Positions 7,384-26,379 of a stretch of DNA of 64,000 nt are shown here, in pieces. How positions within the stretch are numbered: the first letter of the stretch is position 1; every line of letters starts with the position of its first letter. The notes beneath the pieces are model-generated. The model saw nothing but the letters and a program-made list of their open reading frames with translations. It did not search any database and had not been told where the DNA came from. Source of the DNA: Arthrobacter sp. FB24 (lineage in GTDB: Bacteria; Actinomycetota; Actinomycetes; Actinomycetales; Micrococcaceae); contig NC_008541.1 of the NCBI RefSeq assembly GCF_000196235.1, positions 3,844,001-3,908,000 of the forward strand, read 5' to 3'. The translations under genes were made by a program, and so were the position numbers.

Positions 7384-8675
7384 GGGGTCTCCTGGTGTTG
7401 CGCGGTGTTGACGTTGTCAATGGGTCCGGTTTCGTGAACGGGGCCGGTTCTGTGAATGGGGCCTGCGCCGTCTTTCAGCGACGCCGCCAGCATGGAGGCA
7501 CCGGCCGAGCGGCTGCGGCTGGCCACGAGTTCTGCGGTGATGGACACGGCCACTTCGGCCGGGGTCACGGCGCCGAGGTCCAGCCCGATGGGCGAATGTA
7601 GCCGGGACAGGTCTTCGGGGCCTACCCCGGCGGCAAGCAGTGCATCGACGCGTTGCCGGTGGCTGCGCCGCGATCCCATGGCGCCCACATAGGCGAGGTC
7701 AAGCCCCAGCGCGGTGTGCAGCAGCGGGATGTCGAACTTGGGATCGTGGGTCAGGACGCACGCCACGGTACGGGCGTCGATGCGCCCTGACGCAGCTTCC
7801 TCAGCCAGGTAGCGGTGCGGCCAGGCAGTGACCACCTGGTCCGCCCCGGCAAACCGTGACTGGCCGGCGAAGGCCGGGCGGGCGTCGCAGAGGGTCACGT
7901 GGTAGCCCAGCAGTTGGGCGGCGGGCAGCAGGGCGGCGCCGAAGTCGTTGGCTCCGAAGATCAGCAGCCGCGCAGGGGGCAGCCGGCTCTCTACGAGGAG
8001 TGTGACGGGCTCCGGTACGGTGGCCGGGCTGGTTGGGGCGTTAGGCGGCACGGCTGCGCCGGAAAGGCAGCCTTCCGGCGGGGCGAGCCGGACCAGGCCC
8101 GTGCGGCCGCCGCGCAGCAGGGGTTCCAGCTGGGCGGCGGCCGCCAGCATCAGATGCCCGGCCGCGGGTGCTCCCAGCCCGGTCAGGCCCAGCAGCGCCG
8201 CGAGTTCCGTGGAATGCTCCGCCTGGAAACTTGCCGGGTCCGGAATCACGACGGCGCCGCCCCCGTGGGCGTCCACCCTGCGGATGAGTGCGAGTGCGCT
8301 GGCGGATCCCTGACCGGCAAGGAGCCGCAGGCTTTCCAGCCGGAGCGCGCCGGGCGCCGCGCCCAGGGGTTCGATATGGATCTCCAGCTCTCCCCCGCAG
8401 GTGAGCCCGACGGCGAACGCGTCCTCCGCGCTGTAGCCGAAAAACTCGCGGCGTGTGCCGCCGTCGTGCATTGCCGCCAGCGCCGCCTCCACGACGGCGC
8501 CCTCAACGCAGCCGCCGGACAGGCTCCCCAGGACGTCGCCGGCCTCGGACACCAGCATGGAGGTGCCCAAGGGCCGGGGTACGGATCCGCCGGCCCCCAC
8601 CACGGTGGCCAGTGCGCAGCGCTGCCCGGTGGCGGCGGGCCGCCATTCCTTCAGTGAAGGCATCAGATCCAACAT
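7374..8675 (-). CDS. xdhC: XdhC/CoxI family molybdenum cofactor maturation protein
   Basis: A 433-residue protein with the N-terminal XdhC_CoxI domain (ATVVGAGGSVPRPLGTSMLV, then LSGGCVEGAVVEAA) and a C-terminal Rossmann-like domain (RLLIFGANDFGAALLPAAQ, VLTHDPKFDIPLL, YVGAMGSRRSHRQRV). XdhC binds molybdenum cofactor, helps sulfurate it and inserts it into the apo-hydroxylase. It is the first gene of the three-gene leftward operon and overlaps the FAD-subunit start. AGGGAG lies 8 bases before the ATG. Its upstream gap contains a 13-base palindrome (8795-8807). Confidence 0.85.
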   Translation of the reverse strand: MLDLMPSLKEWRPAATGQRCALATVVGAGGSVPRPLGTSMLVSEAGDVLGSLSGGCVEGAVVEAALAAMHDGGTRREFFGYSAEDAFAVGLTCGGELEIHIEPLGAAPGALRLESLRLLAGQGSASALALIRRVDAHGGGAVVIPDPASFQAEHSTELAALLGLTGLGAPAAGHLMLAAAAQLEPLLRGGRTGLVRLAPPEGCLSGAAVPPNAPTSPATVPEPVTLLVESRLPPARLLIFGANDFGAALLPAAQLLGYHVTLCDARPAFAGQSRFAGADQVVTAWPHRYLAEEAASGRIDARTVACVLTHDPKFDIPLLHTALGLDLAYVGAMGSRRSHRQRVDALLAAGVGPEDLSRLHSPIGLDLGAVTPAEVAVSITAELVASRSRSAGASMLAASLKDGAGPIHRTGPVHETGPIDNVNTAQHQETPWT

Positions 8676-8794
8676 TGCTGCACTCCCTTTTCCTGTGCGG
8701 CGATGGTGTCCATATTCTCGTTCCTATCGTGCGCCGGGGGAAGCACCGGCAGTTGTGGCGCCTGCGTCAGTTTCATTGCACTCTGTGGCTTGCC

Positions 8795-8807
8795 GTTGTT
8801 GAACAAC
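8795..8807. promoter_or_regulatory. Palindrome GTTGTT-G-AACAAC upstream of xdhC
   Basis: A perfect inverted repeat with six-base arms around a single G, 120 bases upstream of the xdhC ATG in the gap behind the purine permease. The TTGT/ACAA arms resemble sites of GntR (FadR-subfamily) regulators. Operator function is inference. Confidence 0.35.
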
Positions 8808-8831
8808 CGGGTAGTGAACCAGCGGTTTGGT

Positions 8832-8866
8832 GGACCGGGGCCGGCCCCATCTGCCTGCCCCGGTCC
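8832..8866 (-). terminator. Hairpin downstream of the purine permease
   Basis: Perfect 10-base arms GGACCGGGGC (8832-8841) and GCCCCGGTCC (8857-8866) lie 27 bases after the permease stop. No T-run follows, so it may be a weak or factor-assisted terminator separating guanine deaminase-permease from xdhC. Confidence 0.45.
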
Positions 8867-8892
8867 GGTCTATGTGGTCCCTACGGGGGTCC

Positions 8893-10389
8893 CTATGCGC
8901 CCAGCAGCGCGTTGATGGGACCGCGGGCAAAATAGATCAGGAAGCCGGCCGTGACCACCCACATCAGCGGGTGCACCTTCCGGATCCTGCCGGAGCAGGC
9001 ACTGATCACCGCCCAGGAGATGAAGCCCACGCCGATGCCGTTGGCGATGGAATAGCTCAGCGGCATGGTGACGATGGTCAGGAAGGCGGGCAGTGCCACG
9101 GAGAACTTGCTGAACTTGATCTCGCGGATCTGGGCCATCATCATTGCGCCAACAACCACCAGCGCTGCCGCGGCCACTTCCAGCGGCACCACGGACGTGA
9201 GCGGCGTCAGGAACATCGAACCCAGGAACAACGCGCCGGTGACCACGGAGGCCAGACCCGTGCGGGCGCCTTCCCCGATGCCCGCGGCGGAGTCGATGTA
9301 CACCGTGTTGGACGAACCTGACGTGGCACCGCCGGCCACGGCCCCCAGACCTTCGACGATGAAGGCGGACTTCAGCCGCGGGAACGTGCCGTCCTTGTGC
9401 GCCACTCCGGCGCTCCTGGCCAGGCCGGTCATGGTGCCCATGGCATCAAAGAAGTTGGTGAACACCAGCGTGAACACCAGCATGGTCGCCGCGAGGCCGC
9501 CGATCCGGCCGAAGGCGCCGAACAGGTCGAACTGCCCCACCAGGGAAAGGTCCGGGGCGGACACCAGGTGGCCGGAGAGGACAGGGGTGTTCAGGTGCCA
9601 GCCGCCGGGGTTGCTCGCGCTGCCGGGGCCGATCTTCATGACTGCCTCGACCACCGCGGCGAGTACGGTGGTCGCCACGATGCCGATCAGCAGGCCGCCC
9701 TGCACCTTGCGGGCCACAAGCACTCCCATGACGAGCAGGCCCACGATGAACACCAGGGTTGGAACCGACGTGATGGAACCGTTGTCGCCCAGCTGGACAG
9801 GGGGACCCGCCGTGGTGGCCCGGACAAATCCGGAATCCACGAATCCGATGAAGGCGATGAACAGCCCGATGCCCACCGTGATGGCGGCCTTCAGTTCCTT
9901 GGGCACGGCCCGGAAGATGGCGGTCCGTGCGCCGGTGACGCCGAAGAGGACGATCAGGATTCCGTTGATGACCACCAGGCCCATGGCCTCGGCCCAGGTG
10001 ACCTCCTGGATCACGGCCACGGCCAGGAAGGAGTTGATGCCCAGCCCTGCCGCGAGCCCGAAGGGGAGGTTGGCGATCAGGCCGAACAGGATGGTCATGA
10101 CGCCGGCGGTGAGGCCGGTGACGGCGCCCACCTGCGCTGCGGACAGCCAGCCCCCGGCAACGTCGGTGGGGGCATTGTCCGCGCTGAAACCACCCAGGAT
10201 CAACGGGTTCAGGATGACGATGTAGGCCATGGTGAAGAAGGTGACCAGGCCGCCGCGAACCTCGCGGGCCACAGTGGAACCGCGTTTGGTGATTTCGAAG
10301 AATCGGTCCAGGAAAGCATTGGCTGGCTGCGGGCGCTTGGGTGCGGCCGGTTGCTGCCGCTCGTCGGAGGTAGTGTCCAGGATTGTCAT
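8893..10389 (-). CDS. NCS2-family adenine/guanine/hypoxanthine permease (AzgA-like)
   Basis: A 498-residue integral membrane protein with about 12-14 hydrophobic segments. VRGGLVTFFTMAYIVILNPLIL and LPFGLAAGLGINSFLA are hallmarks of the AzgA/PbuG branch of the nucleobase:cation symporter-2 family, which imports purine bases with protons. The gene starts 14 bases after the guanine deaminase stop, so the pair is almost surely one transcript that imports and deaminates purines. Confidence 0.85.
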   Translation of the reverse strand: MTILDTTSDERQQPAAPKRPQPANAFLDRFFEITKRGSTVAREVRGGLVTFFTMAYIVILNPLILGGFSADNAPTDVAGGWLSAAQVGAVTGLTAGVMTILFGLIANLPFGLAAGLGINSFLAVAVIQEVTWAEAMGLVVINGILIVLFGVTGARTAIFRAVPKELKAAITVGIGLFIAFIGFVDSGFVRATTAGPPVQLGDNGSITSVPTLVFIVGLLVMGVLVARKVQGGLLIGIVATTVLAAVVEAVMKIGPGSASNPGGWHLNTPVLSGHLVSAPDLSLVGQFDLFGAFGRIGGLAATMLVFTLVFTNFFDAMGTMTGLARSAGVAHKDGTFPRLKSAFIVEGLGAVAGGATSGSSNTVYIDSAAGIGEGARTGLASVVTGALFLGSMFLTPLTSVVPLEVAAAALVVVGAMMMAQIREIKFSKFSVALPAFLTIVTMPLSYSIANGIGVGFISWAVISACSGRIRKVHPLMWVVTAGFLIYFARGPINALLGA

Positions 10390-10403
10390 CTCAGCCGCCG
10401 GCC

Positions 10404-10898
10404 CTAGTAGTCAATCCTGGAGTCGAGCGTGTTCCAGGTGTTGAAAGGTTCGAGGATCGGCGGTGCCTGCGGGTCGTCGAGTTCCAGCTTGGCCACCGGC
10501 ATCAGCGCGTCGCGCCCGCCGTTTTCGAAGTACTCGTAGAAGACTGCGTCGTCGAAGCCAACGGAGGCGGCGTCGTGCCGGTCCGCTGCGAACACCACGC
10601 GCTCCACCCGCGCCCACAGTGCTGACGCCAGGCACATGGGGCACGGCTCGCAGCTCGTATAGAGGGTGGCGCCGGTGAGGTCGAAGGTGCCCAGCTCGCT
10701 GCAGGCACGGCGGATGGCCGTGACTTCGGCGTGGGCTGTGGGGTCGTTCGTAGCGGTGACGCGATTGACGCCGCCGAACGATTGTCCGTCTGCCGTGACA
10801 ACGACGGCACCGAACGGGCCGCCGCTGTTAAGGACGTTGGCCGTGGCCAACCTGATTGATTTGGCCAGGTAATCCTGGGCCGTGACGGTGGTACTCAT
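10404..10898 (-). CDS. guaD: Guanine deaminase (GuaD-type nucleoside deaminase fold)
   Basis: A 164-residue zinc enzyme of the cytidine-deaminase superfamily. The catalytic HAEVTAIRRAC (His and Glu) and SCEPCPMCLASALWARV (two zinc Cys) motifs are intact, and the later DAASVGFDDAVFYEYFEN matches the distinctive C-terminal segment of Bacillus-type GuaD. It converts guanine to xanthine. The start MSTTVTAQDY at 10898 has GGGAG seven bases upstream; a longer in-frame extension to 10979 lacks such a signal. Followed by the purine permease and divergent from 8-oxoguanine deaminase. Confidence 0.8.
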   Translation of the reverse strand: MSTTVTAQDYLAKSIRLATANVLNSGGPFGAVVVTADGQSFGGVNRVTATNDPTAHAEVTAIRRACSELGTFDLTGATLYTSCEPCPMCLASALWARVERVVFAADRHDAASVGFDDAVFYEYFENGGRDALMPVAKLELDDPQAPPILEPFNTWNTLDSRIDY

Positions 10899-11307
10899 GA
10901 TGCGACTCCCTTTGCTGGGAAGCCGGTACGCCGAGGTGGGACGAAAAGGCCAGATGCGACGGTTACCAGGCTTCAGCATGTGCTTTTGAAGGTTAAGTTG
11001 CGCCTGGTAGATAGCTTCCCCGGAGTCCGGGGGCCCGCCTTTGGCAAAATCGAGATTAGCACCTGAACGTGAGCTGCGCCATAGGTTTTGGAAAGTTAAT
11101 TTCGTGATGTGAAATTACGGCGGCCGGGCCGGCCGCCAGACGGGGCGCCACGTGCTGTCACAATCCAGTGCGTTGACGCGGCGCTTCCCGCCGTCCTACG
11201 CTGATGCCGAACCGGCGCTCGCCTTACCCGCGCCGGGAGCCTGGATCAGCAGACAGGCCCTCACTGAGCTGGCATTCCATCCGCACGCTCAGACAGGAAT
11301 CCCGTTT
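10899..11307. other. Divergent regulatory gap, guanine deaminase / 8-oxoguanine deaminase
   Basis: A 409-base gap with no convincing gene. It contains a small palindrome CCCCGG-agt-CCGGGG (11018-11032) and, almost exactly midway between the two start codons, the three-part operator-like element at 11089-11114. The frame of the rightward gene is open from 11152, but that extension is not protein-like. Confidence 0.6.
11089..11114 (+). promoter_or_regulatory. Operator-like element, copy 1 (TGRAA-N6-TTYC-N7-GRAA)
   Basis: TGGAA, six bases, TTTC, seven bases, GAAA. The last two parts sit inside a perfect inverted repeat TAATTTC-N7-GAAATTA (11097-11117). The same layout recurs at 14714-14739 and 18392-18417, each before a purine-degradation gene. 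It probably controls both divergent genes. Likely bound by the IclR- or RpiR-family regulator encoded in the cluster; this is inference. Confidence 0.5.
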
Positions 11308-12672
11308 ATGGCTACCCACCGCTCCGCACACAGGCTCTGGATCCGGAATCCACTCGCAGCCTTCACCGCCAACAATCTTGATGCCACCGGCGGGATCGTG
11401 GTGGCCGGCGGCATCATCACGGAAGTCCTGGCCGCCGGCCAGCAGCCTTCCGCGCCCTGCCAGGAAACGTTCGAGGCCGGCAGCCACGTCCTGCTGCCGG
11501 GCCTGATCAACACCCACCACCACTTCTACCAAACACTCACGCGTGCCTGGGGTCCGGTGGCCAACGTCCCGCTGTTTCCGTGGCTGCAGAACCTGTACCC
11601 GGTCTGGGCCCGGCTCAAGCCGCGGGACCTGGAACTGGCTACCACCGTTGCACTCGCGGAACTGCTGCTCTCCGGCTGCACCACAGCCGCTGACCACCAC
11701 TACCTCTTCCCCCAGGGCATGGAAGACGCCATCGACATCGAGGTCCGGGCGGTGCGGGAGCTCGGCATGCGGGCCACGCTCACCCGCGGCTCCATGACGC
11801 TCGGAGAGGACGACGGCGGCCTGCCGCCACAGTCCACCGTCCAGCAGCCGGACGTGATCCTGGCGGACAGCGAGCGGCTCATCCGGGAGTATCACGAACG
11901 CGGCGACGGCGCCGTCATCCAGGTTGCCCTGGCCCCGTGCTCGCCGTTCTCCGTGACCAAGGAGATCATGGCCGAGAGCGCCGCACTGGCCGAACGGCAT
12001 GACGTCCGGCTGCACACGCACCTGGCTGAAACGCTGGACGAGGAAGACTTCTGCCGGAAGATGTTCGGCCTGCGCACGGTGGAATACCTGGAGAGCGTGG
12101 GCTGGCTCGGCAACCGGACCTGGCTGGGCCACGGCATCCATTTCAGCGATGCAGAGATCGCCGCGCTGGGAGCCGCGGGCACCGCCGTCGCGCACTGCCC
12201 CACGTCCAACATGCGGCTGGCCTCGGGCACTGCCCGGGTACTCGAACTGGAGGATGCCGGAGTGCCGGTGGGGCTGGGAGTGGACGGGTCGGCGTCGAAC
12301 GACGCCTCGAACATGATCCTGGAGGCACGGCAGGCCCTGTACCTGCAGCGGCTGCGCTACGGGGCGCAGGTCCCGGTGGAGCGGGCGCTGGGCTGGGCGA
12401 CCCGGGGGTCGGCGGCGGTGCTGGGCCGCTCCGACCTGGGCCAGCTGGCACCCGGGATGCAGGCGGACCTGGCGTTGTTCCGGCTCGACGAGCTGCGGTT
12501 CTCCGGCAGCCACGACCCCCTCGCCGCGCTCCTGCTGTGCGGAGCGGACCGGGCCGACCGGGTGATGGTGGGCGGGCAGTGGCGCGTGGTGGACGGGCAG
12601 ATCCCGGGCCTTGATGTTGCCGGGCTGATCGCGGAACACTCGGCCGCTGCACGGAAGCTGGTGAACGGGTAG
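11308..12672 (+). CDS. 8-oxoguanine deaminase (amidohydrolase family)
   Basis: A 454-residue metal-dependent amidohydrolase. The start MATHRSAHRLW at 11308 has AGGAA about ten bases upstream. Metal-binding motifs in order: LINTHHHFYQTLTRAW, RLHTHLAETLDEE, WLGHGIHFSD and VGLGVDGSASND. This is the layout of the 8-oxoguanine deaminase/atrazine-chlorohydrolase-like branch, which converts 8-oxoguanine to urate. Position beside guanine deaminase and ahead of uricase fits that role. Hydroxyatrazine-type amidohydrolases are close relatives, so the substrate is likely rather than certain. Confidence 0.8.
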   Translation: MATHRSAHRLWIRNPLAAFTANNLDATGGIVVAGGIITEVLAAGQQPSAPCQETFEAGSHVLLPGLINTHHHFYQTLTRAWGPVANVPLFPWLQNLYPVWARLKPRDLELATTVALAELLLSGCTTAADHHYLFPQGMEDAIDIEVRAVRELGMRATLTRGSMTLGEDDGGLPPQSTVQQPDVILADSERLIREYHERGDGAVIQVALAPCSPFSVTKEIMAESAALAERHDVRLHTHLAETLDEEDFCRKMFGLRTVEYLESVGWLGNRTWLGHGIHFSDAEIAALGAAGTAVAHCPTSNMRLASGTARVLELEDAGVPVGLGVDGSASNDASNMILEARQALYLQRLRYGAQVPVERALGWATRGSAAVLGRSDLGQLAPGMQADLALFRLDELRFSGSHDPLAALLLCGADRADRVMVGGQWRVVDGQIPGLDVAGLIAEHSAAARKLVNG

Positions 12673-12682
12673 CCATTTCCCG

Positions 12683-12750
12683 CCGTTTCGACGGTTCCCT
12701 GCGCCCACGACGTTCGGCGGCGTCGTGGGCGCAGGGAACCGTCGAAACGG
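12683..12750. terminator. Long perfect intergenic hairpin (30-base arms)
   Basis: Arms at 12683-12712 and 12721-12750 are exact reverse complements over 30 bases with an 8-base loop. It starts 10 bases after the 8-oxoguanine deaminase stop and ends 39 bases before the LigD-polymerase ATG. No T-run follows. Likely a terminator or a mobile palindromic repeat. Confidence 0.7.
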
Positions 12751-12789
12751 GCCTATGCCCCGGCAGGTGTTCGTTGCTAGCGTGGCGGC

Positions 12790-14034
12790 ATGAATCCGTC
12801 GAAGACGCCGGCCGAGATCCTCGACATTTCCGGCACCGAGGTTCGCATCTCGAGTCCGGACAAGGTGGTTTTTCCCGAGCCCGGGCTGACGAAGCTCGAC
12901 CTGGTGCGCTACTACCTCGCAGTCGCGGATGGTGCGCTGCGCGGCGCGGGCGGCCGGCCCATGGTGCTCAAGCGCTTCCCGAAGGGCATCGACGCCGAGC
13001 CGTTCTTCCAGAAGCGCGTGCCGGAAAACCACCCCGACTTCATCGAGACGGCAACACTGCACTATGCGTCCGGAACATCGGCCGAAGAGGCCGTGATCCG
13101 CGATGCCGCCGGCCTGGCGTGGGTGGTGAACCTTGGATGCCTCGACCTCAACCCCCATCCCGTACGCGCCGAGGACCTCGAGCACCCCGACGAGCTCCGG
13201 GTGGACCTCGATCCGATGCCGGGGGTCGACTGGTCGCAGATCGTCGACGTCGCGTATGTGGCACGGGAGGTCCTCGACGACACGGGACTGGTGGGGTGGC
13301 CGAAGACGAGCGGCTCGCGGGGACTCCATATCCTGGTGCGCATCGCGCCGCACTGGTCGTACCGAGACGTGCGCCTCGCCGCCGAGACCCTCGCCCGCGA
13401 GGTGGAGAACCGCGCTCCCGGCCTTGCCACCGCGCGTTGGTGGAAGGAGGAACGCGGCGAGAGTGTGTTCGTCGACTTCAACCAGAATGCCAAAGACCGC
13501 ACCGTGGCCTCCGCATACTCGATCCGACCCCTGCCCGATGCCCGGGTCTCGACGCCGCTCACCTGGGACGAGGTCCGCTCCACCCGGCCCGAACAGTTCA
13601 CGGTGCCCACCGTACTCGGGCGCTTTGCAGAGGTGGGCGACCCGCACGCCGGCATCGACGACGCGGCCGGCAGCCTCGACGGGCTCCTCGCCCTGGCTGC
13701 CAAGCTCGGCCCCGCCGAGAAGCCGCCGCGCGGCGGCGACGGCTCCGGCCGCCGGCAGTCGGTGATGCCGCTGATCGAGGTGGCCCGCACCAGGACCAGA
13801 CCCGAGGCGCTCGCGGCACTCGACGAGTGGAAGTCCCGGCATGCGGACCTCGTCCCGGCCCTGCACCCGGCCGATGTCCTCGTCGACGGAATGCGCGGAT
13901 CGAGCTCGCTCTGGTACAGGGTGCGGGTGAACCTGCAACACATCCCCGAAGCGGAGCGTCCAGCGCAGGAGGAGCTCATCGCCGACTATGACCCCTGGGC
14001 CGGCAAGGAATGGCCGGGGCGCCCGGGGGCCTGA
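12790..14034 (+). CDS. Stand-alone LigD-type DNA polymerase/primase domain protein
   Basis: A 414-residue archaeo-eukaryotic-primase-fold protein equivalent to the polymerase domain of DNA ligase D, which fills or extends ends during Ku-dependent end joining. Visible motifs: VLKRFPKGIDAEPFFQKRVP, LRVDLDPMPGVDW (catalytic Asp pair), SGSRGLHILVRI and VFVDFNQNAKDRT. There is no ligase or phosphoesterase domain, and no Ku gene is near. A C-terminal ~100-residue extension follows the polymerase core. It interrupts an otherwise purine-related run, flanked by two unusual hairpins, so it may be an insertion. Confidence 0.85.
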   Translation: MNPSKTPAEILDISGTEVRISSPDKVVFPEPGLTKLDLVRYYLAVADGALRGAGGRPMVLKRFPKGIDAEPFFQKRVPENHPDFIETATLHYASGTSAEEAVIRDAAGLAWVVNLGCLDLNPHPVRAEDLEHPDELRVDLDPMPGVDWSQIVDVAYVAREVLDDTGLVGWPKTSGSRGLHILVRIAPHWSYRDVRLAAETLAREVENRAPGLATARWWKEERGESVFVDFNQNAKDRTVASAYSIRPLPDARVSTPLTWDEVRSTRPEQFTVPTVLGRFAEVGDPHAGIDDAAGSLDGLLALAAKLGPAEKPPRGGDGSGRRQSVMPLIEVARTRTRPEALAALDEWKSRHADLVPALHPADVLVDGMRGSSSLWYRVRVNLQHIPEAERPAQEELIADYDPWAGKEWPGRPGA

Positions 14035-14038
14035 CGCA

Positions 14039-14133
14039 GGCGACACGCAAAGCGCCCGGCGACACGCAAAGCGCCCGGCGACACGCAAAAGGCCTGGCGA
14101 CACGCAAAGTGTCCGGCGACACGCAAAAGGCCT
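14039..14133. repeat. Five 19-base tandem repeats
   Basis: Units begin at 14039, 14058, 14077, 14096 and 14115; each starts GGCGACACGCAAA. Units 1 and 2 are identical, units 3 and 5 are identical (ending AGGCCT), unit 4 differs at its end. A sixth, diverged copy of the GGCGACAC start at 14134 belongs to the 5' arm of the adjoining terminator, so the array looks like repeated copying of that arm. Confidence 0.85.
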
Positions 14134-14168
14134 GGCGACACCCGGATTCGGGTGTCGCCAGGCCTTTT
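14125..14168. terminator. Bidirectional terminator
   Basis: Twenty-base arms (14125-14144 and 14149-14168) are exact complements around a GATT loop and carry four A on the left and four T on the right, so the stem can terminate transcripts from either side: the LigD polymerase on the + strand and the small gene at 14196 on the - strand. Confidence 0.8.
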
Positions 14169-14195
14169 GGGCGTCGTCAGCGAAGAAGCGTGTCG

Positions 14196-14393
14196 TCAGC
14201 CTCGTTGCGACCGTTGGCCGCCGAAGCCCGGCAGGCCGTGGACCCAGCGCGAGAAGCGGCCCGGGACGTGCTCCCGGTCTGCAGGCAGGTAGAAGTCCGG
14301 ATCCGTTCCGCCTCCGAGGGGGAGGTAGAACTCCGGGACTGAAGGTGCCGCCGTCGGTGCCGGTGCAACCGGCGTTGTGTCCTGCTGGTACAT
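14196..14393 (-). CDS. Small hypothetical protein (65 aa)
   Basis: Starts MYQQDTTPVAPAP, with GGAGG five bases before the ATG, a strong ribosome-binding site. The sequence is Pro-rich at the N-terminus, then has a repeated EFYLP/DFYLP motif and a basic Gly/Arg tail (GRFSRWVHGLPGFGGQ). No membrane segment and no family recognised. Its upstream AT-rich region contains the palindrome TTCCA-N5-TGGAA (14432-14446), the core of the element found before the purine genes, so it may belong to the same regulon. Confidence 0.55.
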   Translation of the reverse strand: MYQQDTTPVAPAPTAAPSVPEFYLPLGGGTDPDFYLPADREHVPGRFSRWVHGLPGFGGQRSQRG

Positions 14394-14431
14394 CTGATCC
14401 TCCTCCAAGGTGATTTGGTTAAGCTCTCAAC

Positions 14432-14446
14432 TTCCACAAAATGGAA
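14432..14446. promoter_or_regulatory. Palindrome TTCCACAAAATGGAA
   Basis: Perfect inverted repeat TTCCA-N5-TGGAA, equal to the TTYC-N7-GRAA core of the purine-gene elements, 39 bases upstream of the ATG of the leftward 65-residue gene. Operator role is inferred from its recurrence. Confidence 0.4.
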
Positions 14447-14537
14447 AATAACTTTTGCTATGTGAAATAGCGTAGAGCGCTGCCCGGTATTCGTCAATGG
14501 TCCGGGAGGCCGCCGGTCACAATCTGATTTTTCAGCT

Positions 14538-14553
14538 AGTGATGTACACCACG
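14538..14553. promoter_or_regulatory. CRP/GlxR-like site 1 before uricase
   Basis: AGTGATGTACACCACG matches 13 of 16 positions of the actinobacterial GlxR/CRP consensus TGTGANNTANNTCACA, including the central TA. A second such site is centred 45 bases downstream. Confidence 0.4.
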
Positions 14554-14582
14554 GCGATGCTCGGCTACGCTTTAAGTCAACT

Positions 14583-14598
14583 CGTGGCGTAGGTCACG
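14583..14598. promoter_or_regulatory. CRP/GlxR-like site 2 before uricase
   Basis: CGTGGCGTAGGTCACG matches 13 of 16 positions of TGTGANNTANNTCACA, with the central TA. It lies 31 bases before the rightward terminator. Confidence 0.4.
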
Positions 14599-14628
14599 TA
14601 ACCTGGGAGCAGCAGGCAGGGTCGTAAT

Positions 14629-14660
14629 GAGCTGGCGTCATTGGATGCCGGCTCTTTTTT
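14629..14660 (+). terminator. Rightward intrinsic terminator upstream of uricase
   Basis: Eleven-base arms GAGCTGGCGTC (14629-14639) and GATGCCGGCTC (14644-14654), paired with two G-U wobbles around an ATTG loop, followed by six T. No + strand gene ends here, so it closes either a small RNA or an attenuated uricase leader. Confidence 0.65.
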
Positions 14661-14713
14661 GTTGGGTCGGCTCCATCAGAAACGCGTGTGTAACACGCGC
14701 TTAATTTCAATGA

Positions 14714-14739
14714 TGGAACCTAGGTTCCACATCACGGAA
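14714..14739 (+). promoter_or_regulatory. Operator-like element, copy 2, before uricase
   Basis: TGGAA, six bases, TTCC, seven bases, GGAA. The first 16 bases form a perfect palindrome (TGGAACCTAGGTTCCA, 14714-14729). It ends 14 bases before the uricase ATG, so a bound repressor would block transcription or early elongation. Confidence 0.55.
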
Positions 14740-14753
14740 GTTGGGAACAGACC

Positions 14754-15662
14754 ATGAGCAGCAAAATCATCCTCGGCCAGAACCAGTACGGCAAGGCCGA
14801 AGTCCGGGTCGTCAAGATCACCAGGGACACCGACCGCCACGAGATCGAAGACCTGAACGTCACCTCGCAGCTCCGCGGGGACTTCGCCGCCGCGCACCTC
14901 CAGGGCGACAACAGCCACGTCGTTGCCACGGACACGCAGAAGAACACCATCTACGCGTTTGCCCGTGAAGGCGTCGGTTCGCCGGAGGCCTTCCTCCTGC
15001 GACTGGGCGAGCACTTCACCTCCAGCTTCGACTGGGTTACGGGCGGCCGCTGGGAAGCCGAGTCCTACAGCTGGGATCGGATCCAGGCCCATGGAGCCGA
15101 GCACGACCACTCCTTCGTGCGTAACGGCCAGGAAGTCCGCACTGCGGTGCTGGTCCGCGACGGCGCGGCCGCTCATCTCATCTCCGGCCTGAAGGACCTC
15201 ACCGTCCTCAAGTCCACCCAGTCCGGCTTCGTCGGCTACCCGCGGGACAAGTACACCACCCTCCCGGAAACCACTGACCGCATCCTGGCTACGGACGTTT
15301 CCGCCCGCTGGCGCTTCAACGCCAACACGGACTTCAGCGCGCTCGACTTCAACAAGAGCTACGAGGACGTCAAGAGCCTGTTGCTGGAGGGTTTCACCGA
15401 AAAGTACTCCCACGCCCTGCAGCAGACCCTGTTCGACATGGGCGCCAAGGTACTGGAAGCGCACAGCGAGATCGACGAGATCAAGTTCTCGATGCCCAAC
15501 AAGCACCACTTCCTGGTGGACCTCTCACCGTTCGGCCTCGACAACCCCAACGAGGTCTTCTTTGCCGCGGACCGTCCGTACGGCCTGATCGAGGCCACGG
15601 TCCAGCGCGAGGACGCCACCCCGGCGGACATCGCCTGGTCCGGCATCGCCGGCTTCTGCTAG
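14754..15662 (+). CDS. uox: Urate oxidase (uricase)
   Basis: A 302-residue enzyme, the same length as Arthrobacter globiformis uricase. It oxidises urate to 5-hydroxyisourate in the cytosol without a cofactor. The catalytic residues known from the Aspergillus enzyme are present: Lys14 in YGKAEVRVVK, Thr59 in VVATDTQKN, and the Asn-Lys-His of MPNKHHF (His251). It lacks a clear peroxisomal-type C-terminal tail, as expected for a bacterium. Upstream lie an operator-like palindrome and a terminator; the next gene is a urate/xanthine-type permease. Confidence 0.95.
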   Translation: MSSKIILGQNQYGKAEVRVVKITRDTDRHEIEDLNVTSQLRGDFAAAHLQGDNSHVVATDTQKNTIYAFAREGVGSPEAFLLRLGEHFTSSFDWVTGGRWEAESYSWDRIQAHGAEHDHSFVRNGQEVRTAVLVRDGAAAHLISGLKDLTVLKSTQSGFVGYPRDKYTTLPETTDRILATDVSARWRFNANTDFSALDFNKSYEDVKSLLLEGFTEKYSHALQQTLFDMGAKVLEAHSEIDEIKFSMPNKHHFLVDLSPFGLDNPNEVFFAADRPYGLIEATVQREDATPADIAWSGIAGFC

Positions 15663-15683
15663 ACCGCACTTAGCGGCCCGCGC

Positions 15684-15790
15684 CGGTGGTTGAGCCGGGC
15701 CCCGCCTGACGGGTTCCCTGACCGAGCTTGCGAGGTTAGGGGGCAGGCGGGGCCCGACATCCCCGGGTCTCGCCAGTCTCGACCACCGGG
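15684..15790. terminator. Nested inverted repeat after uricase
   Basis: An inner perfect pair CGGGCCCCGCCTG (15696-15708) and CAGGCGGGGCCCG (15744-15756) is enclosed by an outer imperfect pair CCGGTGGTTGAG / CTCGACCACCGG (about 15683 and 15778). Likely terminator or palindromic repeat between uricase and the permease. Confidence 0.5.
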
Positions 15791-15846
15791 CACCTCCCGG
15801 CCTCACTCCCCAGCTCGACCACCCGGGCCACCAACGATTCAAAACT

Positions 15847-15920
15847 GTTAGCCAGACACCGTTAGCCAGACAAAGACGTCTGCCATGAACACCAAGAAAG
15901 TCTGCCATGAACACCAAGAA
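15847..15920 (+). repeat. Two tandem duplications across the permease start
   Basis: GTTAGCCAGACA occurs at 15847 and 15861 (14-base unit). A 21-base block, GTCTGCCATGAACACCAAGA plus a final A, occurs at 15878 and 15900 (22-base period). The second duplication copies the start codon: ATG at 15885 and at 15907. Because 22 is not a multiple of three, only the second is in the permease frame. Confidence 0.9.
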
Positions 15921-17409
15921 GAAATCGGCCGCCGCAGCCGCAGCCGGCCGCAAGAAGTCCGACCGCCCCGAAGACCAGCGGCTGCCCCTGGGAAGCACCT
16001 TCGCCTACGGCTTCCAGCACGTCCTCACCATGTATGGCGGCATCATCGCCCCGCCGCTGATCATCGGCGCAGCCGCCGGCATGTCTTCGCAGGACATTGG
16101 CCTGCTGATCGCCGCCTGCCTGTTTGTGGGCGGCCTTGCCACCATCCTGCAGACCATCGGCATTCCGTTTTTCGGGTCGAAGCTCCCGCTGGTCCAGGGC
16201 GTCTCCTTCGCCGGTGTTTCCACCATGGTGGCGATCGTCCACGGCGGCGGCGGTATCCAGGCGGTCTTTGGCTCGGTGATTGCCGCTTCGCTGATCGGCC
16301 TGCTCATCACTCCCCTGTTTTCCAAGATCATCCGGTTCTTCCCGCCGGTGGTGACGGGCACGGTGATCACCACCATCGGGCTGACCCTCATGCCGGTCGC
16401 GGCCAACTGGGCCATGGGCGGCAACAACAAGGCCCCGAACTACGGCAGCATGGCCAACATCGGCCTGGCCGCGGCCACCATGGCGATCGTGCTGCTCCTG
16501 AGCAAGGTGGGCAACGCGGCAATCTCGAGGCTTTCCATCCTGCTGGCGATGGTGCTCGGCACGGTGATTGCCTTCGCCTTCGGCATGGCTGATTTCTCCA
16601 AGGTGGGCCAGGGCGAAATCGTGGCGTTCCCCACCCCGTTCGCGTTCGGCCCGCCCACTTTCGAGCTCGCGGCGATCATCTCCATGCTGATCGTCATCCT
16701 GGTCACGCTCACCGAGACCTCGGCGGACATCATCGCAGTCGGCGAGATCGTGGGCACCAAGGTTGACTCCAAGCGCATCGGCGACGGCCTGCGGGCCGAT
16801 ATGCTCTCCAGCGCCATCTCCCCGCTGTTCAACTCCTTCACCCAGAGCGCTTTTGCCCAGAACGTTGGCCTCGTGGCCATCACCGGGGTCAAGAGCCGCT
16901 TCGTGGTGAGCGCCGGCGGACTCATCCTGGTGATCCTCGGCCTGCTGCCGGTGCTTGGCCGCGTGGTCGCAGCGGTGCCGACGCCCGTCCTGGGCGGCGC
17001 CGGCGTCGTTCTCTTTGGAACCGTTGCCGCAAGCGGCATCCGGACACTCGCCAAAGTGGAATACAAGAACAACATGAACCTGATCATCGTGGCGGCGTCC
17101 ATTGGTTTCGGCATGATCCCCATCGCCGCGCCGGCGTTCTACGACAAGTTCCCGTCCTGGTTCGGCACCATCTTCCACTCGGGCATCAGCTCGGCCGCCG
17201 TGATGGCCATCCTGCTGAACCTGCTCTTCAACCACCTCAAGGCCGGCAACTCAGAGAACCAGTCCGTCTTCGTGGCGGGAACCGGACGGGTTGTCCGCGA
17301 AGAGGACCTGAAATGCCTGGCCGACGGCGACCGTTACGAAGGCGGGAAGCTGATCGACTGCGACGGCAAGGAAGTCCCGGTGGAGTCGGCGTCGAAATCT
17401 GACCACTAA
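15907..17409 (+). CDS. NCS2-family urate/xanthine permease
   Basis: A 500-residue membrane transporter of the nucleobase:cation symporter-2 family (UraA/PucJK/UacT branch), about 14 transmembrane segments. LPLVQGVSFAGVSTM is the family QGxxFA-like motif and AFAQNVGLVAITGVKSRF is the NCS2 signature in segment 10. Next to uricase it most likely imports urate or xanthine. N-terminus is Lys/Ala-rich. The start codon region is duplicated (see repeat), and the upstream ATG at 15885 reads out of frame. Confidence 0.85.
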   Translation: MNTKKKSAAAAAAGRKKSDRPEDQRLPLGSTFAYGFQHVLTMYGGIIAPPLIIGAAAGMSSQDIGLLIAACLFVGGLATILQTIGIPFFGSKLPLVQGVSFAGVSTMVAIVHGGGGIQAVFGSVIAASLIGLLITPLFSKIIRFFPPVVTGTVITTIGLTLMPVAANWAMGGNNKAPNYGSMANIGLAAATMAIVLLLSKVGNAAISRLSILLAMVLGTVIAFAFGMADFSKVGQGEIVAFPTPFAFGPPTFELAAIISMLIVILVTLTETSADIIAVGEIVGTKVDSKRIGDGLRADMLSSAISPLFNSFTQSAFAQNVGLVAITGVKSRFVVSAGGLILVILGLLPVLGRVVAAVPTPVLGGAGVVLFGTVAASGIRTLAKVEYKNNMNLIIVAASIGFGMIPIAAPAFYDKFPSWFGTIFHSGISSAAVMAILLNLLFNHLKAGNSENQSVFVAGTGRVVREEDLKCLADGDRYEGGKLIDCDGKEVPVESASKSDH

Positions 17410-17428
17410 GCCCGCACACCGGCACAAC

Positions 17429-17488
17429 AAGCGCGAACGGACAGTTGGGGCCCCTTTCCCACAGGGGCCCCACTGTCCGTTCGCGCTT
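17429..17488. terminator. Long intergenic hairpin (25-base arms)
   Basis: Arms at 17429-17454 and 17464-17488 are complementary over 25 bases with one bulged T in the left arm and a 9-base loop. It follows the permease stop by about 20 bases and ends 51 bases before the RpiR regulator. Confidence 0.7.
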
Positions 17489-17538
17489 CTGCGTCGCTGA
17501 TCCATGCCACCGGGTCCCCGCTGTGAGACGGTTGTTTC

Positions 17539-18363
17539 ATGAGGATCGATGAACGAATCGAACGGCACTATGCGGAGCTGGGCCCGCAGGAACAAAAGGC
17601 GGCAGACACGCTCCTGGACCGCCTCGGCGACCTCGCCATGTACAACGCCGCCGAACTTGCCAGGCTCAGCGGCGTCTCCAAAGCCACCATGAGCCGGCTG
17701 TTCCGCCGCCTCGGCTTCGAGGATTTCAACGAGGTCAAGGAACATACCCGGTCCATCCGTTCCAGCGGCATGCCTCTGGGTCCGCAGTCGTCCGACGGCG
17801 GTCTGCCTGCCCATTGGGGGCAGGAGCAGGAAAACCTGCGCCGCCTGGCTGAATCGCTCGACGAGGACAAACTGTCGGCAGCCTGCGGCAAGCTCGCCGG
17901 CGCCGGGACCGTGCTGCTGCTCGGCTTCCGCAACAGCTTTCCCGTGGCGCTGCACTTCCGGCAGCAGTTGCTCCAGTGCCGCCCCGCGGTGTCTGTGGCG
18001 CCACAGCCCGGACAGAGCCTGGGCGAGGAGCTCGCCGGGCTGGGCGCCGGCGACGCGGTGGTCCTGTTCGGCTTCCGGCGGCGGCCCGCCGGGTTCCGTA
18101 AAGTCCTCCAGGGGGCGGCCGCCACAGGGGCAACCACGATTCTGATCGGGGACCCGGGGGCACGCCGCCTCGCAGCTGATGCCGCCCTGTGGCTCGAGTG
18201 CCCGGTGGACGGCGCCCACGCCTTCGACAGCTACGCCGCCGCCATGAGCCTGGTCAGCGTCCTTGCGAACGGCGTCCTCGTAGCCTTGGGACGTCCCGGC
18301 CGCGAGCGCGTCCGCGAGGTGACGGGAATATTCGACACCCTGGGCGAGATCGAAGCGAAGTAA
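17539..18363 (+). CDS. MurR/RpiR-family transcriptional regulator
   Basis: A 274-residue repressor-type protein. Residues 1-75 are the HTH_6 domain (LARLSGVSKATMSRLFRRLGF as the helix-turn-helix); residues about 110-250 are a SIS sugar-isomerase fold that in this family senses a phosphosugar or other small ligand. In Firmicutes and actinobacteria RpiR members often regulate purine or ureide genes placed beside them. It sits directly before the allantoin permease, with the operator-like element between, so it is one of two candidate regulators of the cluster. Confidence 0.8.
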   Translation: MRIDERIERHYAELGPQEQKAADTLLDRLGDLAMYNAAELARLSGVSKATMSRLFRRLGFEDFNEVKEHTRSIRSSGMPLGPQSSDGGLPAHWGQEQENLRRLAESLDEDKLSAACGKLAGAGTVLLLGFRNSFPVALHFRQQLLQCRPAVSVAPQPGQSLGEELAGLGAGDAVVLFGFRRRPAGFRKVLQGAAATGATTILIGDPGARRLAADAALWLECPVDGAHAFDSYAAAMSLVSVLANGVLVALGRPGRERVREVTGIFDTLGEIEAK

Positions 18364-18391
18364 ACAGGAATTGTTGCGCCAGAAACAGCTT

Positions 18392-18417
18392 TGAAACATT
18401 GGTTCCATCTAATTGAA
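18392..18417 (+). promoter_or_regulatory. Operator-like element, copy 3, before allantoin permease
   Basis: TGAAA, six bases, TTCC, seven bases, TGAA. It matches the uricase copy (14714-14739) at 18 of 26 positions and ends 49 bases before the permease ATG. Confidence 0.5.
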
Positions 18418-18466
18418 AGCGTGAAACGGCCGGATCGGCGGCTGTCCCAATCTCTTAGAGGAAACC

Positions 18467-20029
18467 ATGACAGATTCCGCGATGGCCGCCCCCCGGGTTG
18501 AAGCATCCGCCCGCACCGGCCAGCTCCCCGACTACGATCCGCAGCTCAGCAATGAGGATCTTGTCCCCCTGAAGAACCAGCGCTGGACCAGCTACAACCT
18601 GTTCGCCTTCTGGATGTCGGACGTCCACAGCATCGGCGGCTATGTCACGGCAGGAAGCCTCTTCGCCCTGGGGCTGGCCAGCTGGCAGGTGCTCGTGGCC
18701 CTGCTGGCGGGCATCGTGATCGTCAATATCTTCTGCAACCTCGTAGCCAAGCCCAGCCAGCTGACGGGTGTTCCGTACCCGGTCATCAACCGGGCCGTCT
18801 TCGGCGTCAAGGGCGCCAACATCCCGGCCATCATCCGCGGCCTGATCGCAGTGGCCTGGTACGGCGTTCAGACCTTCCTCGCCTCCGAGGCGCTGGTGAT
18901 TGTCTTCCTCAAGTTCTTCCCCGGCATGGCGCCGCTGTACGACGTCGAACAGAACGGCTTCCTGGGCCTCTCCACCTTGGGCTGGATCTGCTACGGCATC
19001 CTCTGGGTGGCGCAGGCAGCACTCTTCTGGAACGGCATGGAGAGCATCCGAAGGTTCATCGACTTCGCCGGCCCCGCCGTCTACGTGGTGATGCTGTTCC
19101 TGGCCATCTACCTGGTGTCCAAGGCGGGCATCGGGAACATCAGCCTGAACCTGTCCAGCGGGCCGCCCCTGGACTTCGCCGCCTCCATCCCCGTCATGGT
19201 CTCCGCCGTCGCGCTGGTGGTGTCCTACTTCTCCGGCCCGATGCTCAACTTCGGCGACTTCGCCCGGTACGGCAAGAGCTACAAGGCGGTCAAGAAGGGG
19301 AACTTCCTGGGGCTGCCGGTGAACTTCCTGTTCTTCTCGCTCCTGACCGTCATCACCGCCTCAGCCACCATCCCGGTTTTCGGCCGCCTCATCACGGACC
19401 CGGTCAAGACCGTCCAGGAAATCGACACCGTGTTCGCCGTGCTGCTGGGCGGACTCACCTTCGTCATCGCTACCGTCGGCATTAACATCGTGGCCAACTT
19501 CATCTCGCCCGCGTTCGACTTCTCCAACGTCAGCCCGCAGAAAATCAGCTGGCGGGCAGGCGGCATGATTGCCGCCGTCGGCTCCGTCATCCTGACGCCG
19601 TGGAACTGGTACTCCAACAACGACGCCATCCACTACACACTGGGTGTCCTGGGCGCGTTGATCGGCCCGCTGTTCGGCATCCTGATCGCCGGGTACTACG
19701 TGGTGAGCCGCCAGAAGGTCTGGGTGGACGACATGTACACGCTGAAAACCACCGGCCGGTACTGGTTCCGGAACGGCTACAACCCGAACGCCGTCAAGGC
19801 CGTGGCCATCAGCGGAGCCATCTCCATCGCCTCCGTGCTGATTCCCAAGATCCTGCTCGACACCGGTGCCACGGCAGTGAACGCAACCTGGATCGGCAAC
19901 TACAGCTGGTTCCTCGGATGCGCCCTCGGCTACGTAGTCTTCCGGGCGCTGGAGCGGCGGTCCCCGATGATTTCGCTTGAACCGGCCGGCAAGGAAAGCG
20001 GCACCGTCAGCGACGGCACGCTGGTTTAG
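18467..20029 (+). CDS. NCS1-family allantoin/hydantoin permease
   Basis: A 520-residue sodium- or proton-coupled transporter of the nucleobase:cation symporter-1 family (Mhp1, PucI, Fur relatives), 12 membrane segments. NEDLVPLKNQRWTSYNLFAF followed by WMSDVHSIGGYV is the family's first-helix signature. AGAGGAAACC precedes the ATG. Between uricase and the glyoxylate genes, allantoin is the best substrate guess; uracil or hydantoin permeases look similar. Confidence 0.85.
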   Translation: MTDSAMAAPRVEASARTGQLPDYDPQLSNEDLVPLKNQRWTSYNLFAFWMSDVHSIGGYVTAGSLFALGLASWQVLVALLAGIVIVNIFCNLVAKPSQLTGVPYPVINRAVFGVKGANIPAIIRGLIAVAWYGVQTFLASEALVIVFLKFFPGMAPLYDVEQNGFLGLSTLGWICYGILWVAQAALFWNGMESIRRFIDFAGPAVYVVMLFLAIYLVSKAGIGNISLNLSSGPPLDFAASIPVMVSAVALVVSYFSGPMLNFGDFARYGKSYKAVKKGNFLGLPVNFLFFSLLTVITASATIPVFGRLITDPVKTVQEIDTVFAVLLGGLTFVIATVGINIVANFISPAFDFSNVSPQKISWRAGGMIAAVGSVILTPWNWYSNNDAIHYTLGVLGALIGPLFGILIAGYYVVSRQKVWVDDMYTLKTTGRYWFRNGYNPNAVKAVAISGAISIASVLIPKILLDTGATAVNATWIGNYSWFLGCALGYVVFRALERRSPMISLEPAGKESGTVSDGTLV

Positions 20030-20035
20030 GACCGG

Positions 20036-20076
20036 CCGCCGTCGACCTCGCCTACGGCGGGGAAGTGCGACGGCGG
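20036..20076. terminator. Convergent hairpin, allantoin permease / IclR
   Basis: Perfect nine-base arms CCGCCGTCG (20036-20044) and CGACGGCGG (20068-20076) with an inner stem CGCC-tac-GGCG, in the 50-base gap between two converging genes. Confidence 0.6.
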
Positions 20077-20079
20077 GGG

Positions 20080-20835
20080 TCAGTTCTGGTTGAGTTCGTC
20101 GGAGATCGCCTGGGCTGCTTCGCGCAGCAGCGGCACGGCGCGTTCGGCGAAGGACTGGTCCACGCGCGACACCGGCCCGGACACCGAAATCGCCGTGGGC
20201 GTCGGCGCATTGGGGACTGCCATCGCAAAGCAGCGGACGCCGATCTCCTGCTCCTCCTCGTCGATGGAATAGCCGCGTTCCCGGATCAGCTTGAGGTCAA
20301 GGAGCAGGGAGTCGATGTCACCGATGCTCTTGGGGGTGGGCGTGGGCATGCCGCTGCGCTGGACGATTCCGCGGACGGTCTCGTCATCCAGCTGGGCCAG
20401 GATCGCCTTGCCAACGCCGGTGGCGTGGGTGTGCGCGCGGCGGCCCACCTCGGTGAACATGCGCATGGAGTGCAGGGACGGCACCTGGGCCACGTAGATG
20501 ACCATGTCCGAGTCCAGCACCGCCATGTTGGACGTCTCCCCCAGCCGGTCCACGAGGGACTTGAGCTGCGGACGCGCGAGTGCACCGAGCTGCTTGTTGG
20601 CACCTTCGCCGAGCCGGATGAGCCGCGGACCGAGTGCGTACCGCCGGTTCGGCAGCTGGCGGATGTAGCCCAGCGTGACCAGGGTGCGCAGCAGGCGGTG
20701 GATCGTGGGAAGAGGCAGGTCGGTGGAGGAAGACAGCTCGCTGAGCGTGACGTCTCCGCCGGCGTCAGTGATCAGTTCCAAAAGTTCGAAGACGCGCTCA
20801 ACGGACTGCACGCCTCCCGGGGCTTTTTCAGCCAT
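20080..20835 (-). CDS. IclR-family transcriptional regulator
   Basis: A 251-residue regulator starting MAEKAPGGVQSVERVFELL, with AGGAG nine bases upstream; an earlier in-frame TTG at 20868 is less likely. Residues about 10-75 form the winged helix (TLSELSSSTDLPLPTIHRLL), and the rest is the IclR effector domain (YVAQVPSLHSMRMFTEVGRR, ATGVGKAILA, DEEEQEIGVRCFAM). The family includes AllR, the allantoin/glyoxylate-responsive repressor of ureide genes in E. coli and Streptomyces. Divergent from malic enzyme and flanked by ureide genes, it probably has that role here; ligand is inference. Confidence 0.85.
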   Translation of the reverse strand: MAEKAPGGVQSVERVFELLELITDAGGDVTLSELSSSTDLPLPTIHRLLRTLVTLGYIRQLPNRRYALGPRLIRLGEGANKQLGALARPQLKSLVDRLGETSNMAVLDSDMVIYVAQVPSLHSMRMFTEVGRRAHTHATGVGKAILAQLDDETVRGIVQRSGMPTPTPKSIGDIDSLLLDLKLIRERGYSIDEEEQEIGVRCFAMAVPNAPTPTAISVSGPVSRVDQSFAERAVPLLREAAQAISDELNQN

Positions 20836-20950
20836 AACCGTGGTCTCCTGCGGTATCGATTCCGACAACTCTTATCCACATCGTGAAAAAAATTGCTTAG
20901 AAGTCCCAAGATACAGCACGCATCGCCCTCCGTCGATGCACAGGCGGGGC

Positions 20951-20964
20951 TTGTGTTTCCACAA
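20951..20964. promoter_or_regulatory. Inverted repeat TTGTG-TTTC-CACAA in the IclR/malic enzyme gap
   Basis: Lies in an AT-rich 221-base divergent gap (20836-21056). Its right part contains TTCCACAAA, also present in the palindrome at 14432. CATAAT at 20981-20986 could be a rightward -10 box. Probable autoregulatory operator of the IclR gene. Confidence 0.4.
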
Positions 20965-21056
20965 AGTAGATAATAATATCCATAATACGAAAACATTTGA
21001 TTGAGCAGTACGTCCGGGTGCGCTCCGCGTCCGGACCCGACCAGGAGGAACATTCA

Positions 21057-22496: not shown

Positions 22497-22522
22497 TTCG
22501 CAGCCTAGAAAGGACCCGGACA

Positions 22523-24121: not shown

Positions 24122-24124
24122 GGC

Positions 24125-25399: not shown

Positions 25400-25406
25400 G
25401 GATCCA

Positions 25407-26222: not shown

Positions 26223-26238
26223 GGCCTGACCTTCCCCA

Positions 26239-26306
26239 CCCCAACTGACTGGCAGTTAACGTCGCCAAAACGCGGTTTCGCAACGTTAACTGCGGGTCAG
26301 TTGGGG
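26239..26306. terminator. Long intergenic hairpin after allE
   Basis: Twenty-four-base arms (26239-26262, 26283-26306) match at 22 positions around a 20-base loop that can itself pair in part. It starts 16 bases after the allE stop and is the third such long palindrome in the window. Confidence 0.7.
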
Positions 26307-26379
26307 GTTAACGGGACTTTGACCGGGTTGCGACGGCGGCGCCCGCTAGCTATTGACGCGTCGGAAAGCCCTGAGGAAC

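Follow-up and report, generated by a model that had tools for sequence, protein, structure and literature searches.

In a 64,000-nt stretch of DNA from Arthrobacter sp. FB24 (NC_008541.1, positions 3,844,001-3,908,000; called the window below), genes for the degradation of purines are accompanied by a repeated element made of TTYC and GRAA boxes. Sequence comparison indicates, with good confidence, that a regulator of the IclR family uses this element as its operator; this regulator is most likely the product of the gene at 20080 and would govern the pathway from purines to glyoxylate. In addition, the leaders of two of these genes contain a second element that is probably a cis-regulatory RNA. 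Features of the window are listed in Table 1; labels of the form L### denote loci, and G000 is the FB24 genome itself.

The element had been described, from a sequence-only reading of the window, as a three-part unit, TGRAA-N6-TTYC-N7-GRAA, found before three purine genes. A scan of the window confirmed exact matches at 11089-11114 and 14714-14739 and a match with one mismatch at 18392-18417, and located a further one-mismatch match at 14442-14467. In dinucleotide shuffles of the window the mean was 0.17 matches per window, and four matches were reached in none of 100 shuffles. The unit itself had to be redrawn: the 26-base pattern represents boxes 2 to 4 of a 36-bp sequence with four boxes, TTYC-N7-GRAA-N6-TTYC-N7-GRAA, in other words two 15-bp IclR-type palindromes (TTYC-N7-GRAA) whose centres are 21 bp apart. 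The segment 14432-14446 (TTCCACAAAATGGAA), previously called a perfect palindrome, is perfect in its 5-base arms (TTCCA/TGGAA) but not in its centre, and together with the 14442 match it forms a single four-box site, 14432-14467, with one mismatch. Boxes 2 to 4 are exact and box 1 is off by one base at 14704-14739; at 20957-20992 the outer boxes are exact and the inner ones degenerate (AGAT/ATCC), and some promoters retain three of the four boxes.

Conservation was analysed in 80 uricase loci, the best 80 of 554 relatives. Among these loci the boxes are constant and the spacers vary between relatives, which bears out the earlier view that a fixed box spacing with diverged spacers is operator-like. 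The (6,7) spacing accounts for 47 of 173 cases, followed by (5,7) with 25, (6,6) with 23, (5,2) with 22 and (11,6) with 21; the last four are read as overlapping registers such as GGAAA. Three-box sites (at most one mismatch, within 300 nt upstream of the gene) were present upstream of the 8-oxoguanine deaminase gene in 33 of 36 regions and of the guanine deaminase gene guaD in 36 of 40, these two being the same gaps, as well as upstream of uraD (20/29), uricase (31/80) and allP-like genes (5/12). By the same measure no site was found before the control genes pbuX (0/66), glcB (0/50), allE (0/50) and ligD (0/23). A distal uricase site, located more than 250 nt upstream, was recovered as a four-box site with at most two mismatches in 40 of the 80 loci.

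When up to one mismatch is allowed, the 26-base pattern occurs 46 times in the own genome (5.07 Mb) and the reversed-pattern control 19 times; eight matches are exact, four of them being regulon sites. According to a crude caller of open reading frames (ORFs), 22 of the 46 fall inside genes, although one of these 'coding' matches, the NCS1-permease site, is an artefact of an ORF extended upstream. The bare pattern was dropped as a genome-wide marker, being too loose. The sequence-only reading had staked its case on the pattern being rarer inside genes than before purine genes and conserved upstream of orthologues; the first part does not hold cleanly for the bare pattern, but the second does, as in the guaD and 8-oxoguanine deaminase gaps.

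A profile was built from 25 sites, all of other species, and searched over the own genome. Among the 150 of 180 candidates that were scored, 14 rows at E<=10 corresponded to nine places: hyi-glxR-gcl, uricase (two), iclR/malic enzyme, dctA, uraD, NCS1 permease, guaD/8-oxoguanine deaminase and aceE. All nine precede pathway genes, dctA or aceE, and five of them have E<0.03. Of the 16 box letters, 16 are matched at dctA, 15 at the NCS1 permease, 15 at uraD and 12 at aceE, and the hyi site has one mismatch. The dctA site (L031:13435-13470), which lies before a dicarboxylate transporter of the SDF/dctA family, is the only perfect four-box operator seen in the own genome and suggests that C4-dicarboxylate uptake belongs to the regulon. 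The hyi operator (G000:C4:4149953) ends 74 nt before hyi, a TIM-barrel gene read as hydroxypyruvate isomerase (its Pfam match is PF01261 only), which is followed by what we take to be glxR and by gcl, which passes TIGR01504; an allantoinase gene passing TIGR03178 is found about 5 kb downstream of the site. By gene order and predicted site, the glyoxylate-to-glycerate genes hyi-glxR-gcl may be under the control of this operator. In E. coli, the hyi-glxR genes are targets of AllR. At E 0.23 the profile also picked up a weak operator-like site (L031:16990-17025, equivalent to G000:C4:3840990-3841025) before the gene presumed to be aceE (pyruvate dehydrogenase E1); this site may point to a connection with central carbon metabolism.

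The IclR protein encoded at 20080 is the best candidate for the regulator of these operators, because the operator precedes iclR in 44 of 45 loci and RpiR, the other cluster-encoded regulator that had been put forward, has no relative in 18 of the 19 tested genomes that carry the operator. The criterion used here was a four-box site with at most three mismatches in 16 box letters, within 250 nt of the gene. Under this criterion nothing was detected before rpiR (0/8), pbuX (0/66), glcB (0/50), allE (0/50), ligD (0/23), ald (0/53) or ncs2 (0/37), and two sites were detected before xdhC (2/38). Among further iclR orthologues of at least 60% identity the operator is upstream in 21 of 24, four of the 21 having another form that is possibly due to chance; the one-mismatch sites of L141 and L171 do not lie on the upstream side of iclR and were excluded from the counts. 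The operator is found before 60%-identical iclR orthologues of Rhodococcus (L142, one mismatch) and of mycobacteria (three mismatches). It was also observed that in the genome of L110 (Arthrobacter sp. SF27) the IclR orthologue (L139, G017), as aligned by the search, has one in-frame TGA, although a four-box site remains upstream. Finally, site and regulator co-occur: in a table of 78 loci (L078 and L095 were left out for lack of data), a site lies before uricase, uraD, guaD or 8-oxoguanine deaminase in 59 of the 66 loci with an IclR orthologue in the genome, compared with 5 of the 12 without (Fisher p 6e-4, relatedness ignored).

The residues of E. coli IclR that bind the glyoxylate oxygens are G160, A161, D212, S239 and S241 (Table 1 of PMC11323563). 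In an alignment with the 20080 protein, G160, D212, S239 and S241 are conserved and A161 is replaced by V, while three of the four methyl-patch residues are changed (L143S, L154A and L220V; M146 is kept as M). Retention of four of five oxygen-binding residues together with a changed methyl patch fits a glyoxylate sensor, and the ligand residues suggest that glyoxylate may release the regulator.

A simple model can be proposed on these grounds. Centres 21 bp apart are separated by two helical turns, so that a pair of IclR dimers (a tetramer) could occupy one face of the DNA across the two palindromes. IclR would bind the operators mainly as a repressor, and glyoxylate, the end product of the pathway, would release it, in the way described for IclR and AllR of E. 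coli. A geometry that would fit repression is seen upstream of the small gene starting at 14393, which encodes a conserved 65-amino-acid (aa) protein with no Pfam match at E<=0.1. A TTGAC -35 box and a TA-rich -10-like hexamer face this ORF in the own sequence and in 16 of 16 chosen loci. The hexamer ends at the operator or within about two bases of it, and consequently the operator covers the predicted transcription start of the gene; binding there would be expected to repress.

Table 1. Features of the window discussed in the text (positions are those of the window)
Feature	Position	Strand	Support
Operator, boxes 2-4 intact, box 1 absent, 12/16 letters	11079..11114	.	profile E 0.16
Four-box operator, 15/16 letters, at predicted start of divergent small gene	14432..14467	.	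profile E 6.5e-6
Operator just upstream of uricase start codon, 14/16 letters	14704..14739	.	profile E 0.83
Operator in iclR/malic-enzyme divergent gap, 13/16 letters	20957..20992	.	profile E 4.5e-4
Atypical allP site, TGAAACATTGGTTCCA palindrome and weak third box	18392..18417	.	pattern, one mismatch; missed by profile
Uricase	14754..15662	+	TIGR03383 380.8 bits, cut-off 168.4
IclR-family regulator	20080..20868	-	PF09339 and PF01614
RpiR-family regulator	17539..18363	+	HTH_6 and SIS
Small ORF, 65 aa, conserved, downstream of 14432 operator	14196..14393	-	tblastn matches in 43/80 loci
RNA-like leader element before 8-oxoguanine deaminase, CCTG-GAT-CAGC-AGA-CAGG-N-CTGA-GCTG	11240..11275	+	
RNA-like element in uricase leader, CCTG-GGAG-CAGC-AGG-CAGG-N-TGA-GCTG	14603..14637	+	
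Intrinsic terminator, uricase leader	14629..14660	+	fold: 11-bp stem, then T run; paired changes across species

Several observations weigh against the assignment to the 20080 regulator or against its action as a repressor. First, the own genome contains at least 52 matches to the IclR helix-turn-helix (HTH) domain, at least 21 of them at E<=1e-8 (150 of 307 candidates were scored), and one of these paralogues may have the motif in common with 20080; among seven distant paralogues (33-36% identity), one (L170) has a four-box site with two mismatches upstream. Second, the inner boxes of the iclR/malic-enzyme operator are degenerate and no three-box site was found before iclR in 45 regions. Third, the match between site and regulator is incomplete: five of the 12 loci with no IclR orthologue found have a site (L066, L072, L099, L107 and L113), and those of L099 and L113, both metagenome-assembled genomes, are strong, with one mismatch; conversely, 7 of the 66 loci with an orthologue have no site. 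Fourth, profile E values exceed 0.1 at four of the nine places (NCS1 permease 0.11, guaD gap 0.16, aceE 0.23 and proximal uricase 0.83), which are weak singly; the sites in the guaD gap and proximal to uricase owe their support to conservation. Fifth, in the guaD/8-oxoguanine deaminase gap the promoter is not placed relative to the operator, so that repression at that position is an unproven proposal, and BhcR, a relative of the 20080 protein, acts as an activator (PMC11323563).

Among other explanations, the one that survives best, falling somewhat short of an even chance in our estimation, gives the regulon two regulators, with IclR acting on the four-box sites and RpiR on the allP site at 18392. 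The latter site lacks the first box, was not among the nine profile places, and matches 11 of 16 box letters when aligned as a four-box site (18382). It is of a type seen only beside the rpiR-allP gene pair. In seven relatives with allP, the three-box pattern has at most one mismatch in L035, L051 and L076 and two in L034 and L075, and is further decayed in L079 and L088; the palindrome TGAAACAT-N2-GTTCCA is kept in six of the seven, the form in L088 being changed. However, the form TGAAACATCTGTTCCA (L075, L076 and L079) also fits the IclR group 2 consensus TGRAACA-N2-TGTTYCA (PMC8222616), and therefore IclR could bind the 18392-type site too. This site may thus be either an IclR group 2 site or an RpiR site.

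It is unlikely that an IclR-family paralogue other than 20080 is the regulator. Paralogues are numerous, and one IclR-HTH match is situated about 5 kb from the uraD site; nevertheless, it is upstream of the 20080-type gene that the operator is found, in 44 of 45 loci and in distant orthologues, compared with one of seven distant paralogues.

Binding of all sites by RpiR is less likely still, to the point of being improbable. The rpiR gene lies in the cluster and adjoins the 18392 site, which is of a type seen only alongside rpiR and allP, and GGAA-N6-TTCC is the reported motif of the RpiR-family protein IolR of Sinorhizobium, which counts in favour of RpiR. On the other hand, among 20 genomes tested, 19 of which carry the operator (L100 does not), RpiR relatives (E<=1e-20) were found in one, leaving 18 of the 19 operator-bearing genomes without, and none of eight rpiR upstream regions has the operator; RpiR was accordingly rejected as a general regulator. 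The proposal that both cluster-encoded proteins are candidates was therefore retained for IclR and given up for RpiR in that general role. That the sites are an artefact of chance or base composition, a view fed by the 46 matches of the bare pattern and by the weakness of some profile places taken singly, can be neglected in the face of the shuffles, conservation with changing spacers, zero or near-zero controls and the position of all nine profile places before pathway genes, dctA or aceE.

The operator with IclR as its regulator can be compared with described systems. Suvorova and Gelfand (2021; PMC8222616) predicted IclR group 1 and group 2 sites in three-box and tandem layouts; 32 orthologous groups have three-box sites, and 94 have tandem sites with a separation of 18-22 nt. 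The sites described here have the same TTYC/GRAA boxes and combine group 1 (N7) and group 2 (N6) spacings within one site: they contain the group 1 half-sites TTYC-N7-GRAA, the group 2 pair GRAA-N5/6-TTYC shares a box with the group 1 pair as in a three-box site, the 21 nt between centres in four-box sites falls in the tandem range, and the linked IclR-family gene has its own upstream site (44 of 45 loci, at most three mismatches of 16). They differ in that one 36-bp unit has both arrangements as four boxes. In the sections of PMC8222616 that were consulted, no purine regulon of Micrococcaceae is named.

The 20080 protein reaches none of the curated cut-offs for AllR, BhcR and IclR. E. coli AllR is an IclR-family repressor of allantoin/glyoxylate operons that binds the gcl promoter, recognizes half-sites TTGGAA..TTCCAA, and binds DNA less well in the presence of glyoxylate (PMC11323563, PMC8222616). 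The gene set found here resembles the AllR regulon, but 20080 is not the AllR equivalog (NF007548, 117.5 bits compared with a cut-off of 406), and the sites extend up the pathway to guanine and 8-oxoguanine deaminases and uricase, and include dctA. The best NCBIfam match of 20080 is BhcR of Paracoccus denitrificans, whose binding responds to glyoxylate and whose pyruvate patch residues are likewise altered (PMC11323563); 20080 remains below the NF045644 cut-off (190.5 compared with 350 bits), and BhcR controls the beta-hydroxyaspartate cycle, as an activator (PMC11323563). The allantoin/glyoxylate system of Pseudomonas is the subject of PMC12694930. In conclusion, the operator mechanism is of a known kind; among the open-access papers listed in literature searches, none was found to describe this regulon of purine genes or the leader RNA element presented below.

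The leaders of the 8-oxoguanine deaminase and uricase genes share a second element, with the consensus CCTG-N3/4-CAGC-AGR-CAGG-N-TGA-GCTG. With a sequence model, three places in the own genome scored strongly (E 8e-11, 3e-9 and 4e-6, the next at 0.04), the third (L178:1499-1533) preceding a gene for an 88-aa protein without Pfam match. In the uricase leader, GAGCTGG is common to the 3' part of the element and to the 5' strand of the terminator, and one strand thereby belongs both to the element and to an expression platform. Downstream of the deaminase copy in L134 and of the permease copy in L199 there is likewise a terminator. The letters of the element permit an H-type pseudoknot formed by CCUG/CAGG and CAGC/GCUG, and two genomes, which belong to different families, have CGGC/GCCG as the second helix. 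In an alignment of the deaminase-type copies only, 99.5% of cells are paired; both partners differ in one of eight pairs, an exchange seen in 2 of 23 sequences, and the remainder is nearly invariant, so that covariation support is thin, the invariance of the boxes being in part imposed by a search pattern that fixed some of their letters.

The element was found in several families of the order. Order-wide, 28 of 396 genomes match at E<=0.01 and 23, the own genome included, at E<=5e-4. Outside the home genus there are 15 strong loci; judged by its start sequence, the gene that follows is 8-oxoguanine deaminase in 13. In the other two, the element precedes a xanthine-permease gene in another genus (L199) or abuts an inner part of the deaminase gene (L201). 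A class-wide search beyond the order gave weak partial matches only, which were taken as chance. A family search gave matches in 53 of 186 genomes at E<=0.05, of which those at the four top-ranked places (E<=2.4e-10) were accepted as genuine; five weaker matches were inspected and were unlike the element, and the remainder was assumed to be chance. The word GTCACAATC occurs at 11157-11165, 14516-14524 and L178:1415-1423, in each case upstream of the promoter predicted for one of the three leaders that carry the RNA element, and is a possible further binding site.

The element matches no Rfam family at gathering score: window positions 8000-26500 gave no match, and at E<=10 there were only weak matches that fell far short of that score. 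From its sequence, the element is a probable cis-regulatory RNA and a possible riboswitch. NMT1, the xanthine riboswitch, is a described case of RNA control over oxidised-purine genes, but it is a two-stem OFF switch of Proteobacteria, whereas the present element is another sequence, in Micrococcales; the authors of the NMT1 study saw no oxidised-purine degradation genes with it (PMC7373994). We tentatively propose, while regarding it as rather doubtful as a whole, a two-layer control at the same promoters, in which a glyoxylate-sensing IclR operator is combined with an undescribed small pseudoknot riboswitch in the 8-oxoguanine deaminase and uricase leaders. This riboswitch would plausibly turn expression on in response to urate or 8-oxoguanine, and the uricase terminator would make alternative use of its 3' strand.

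Gene names in the cluster rest on evidence of different kinds. The 11079 operator is located in the divergent gap between a probable guanine-deaminase/permease/xdh operon on the minus strand and 8-oxoguanine deaminase on the plus strand. The 8-oxoguanine deaminase passes the curated cut-off NF006055 and the xanthine permease TIGR03173; guaD is named from its cytidine-deaminase fold (PF00383) and gene position only, the genes we take to be xdh were named by reading, XdhC scoring below its cut-offs, and uraD matches OHCU decarboxylase. Within the purine cluster, a gene with a LigD-type polymerase domain (12790-14034) separates 8-oxoguanine deaminase from uricase; it is found in only part of the 80 loci. 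Between the uricase terminator and the proximal operator, a perfect inverted repeat, CGCGTGT-gta-ACACGCG (14683-14699), is kept in relatives with paired changes.

Should urate or 8-oxoguanine turn out to be a ligand of the leader RNA, this would connect a riboswitch with the degradation of oxidised purines, a link that the authors of the NMT1 study did not find for their class (PMC7373994). How dimers and tetramers of IclR are arranged on three-box and tandem sites is an open question, for which the four-box operator offers a clean case. The operator would bring scattered purine, allantoin and glyoxylate genes together in a single regulon that can be tested, and for which both a candidate regulator and a candidate effector can be named.

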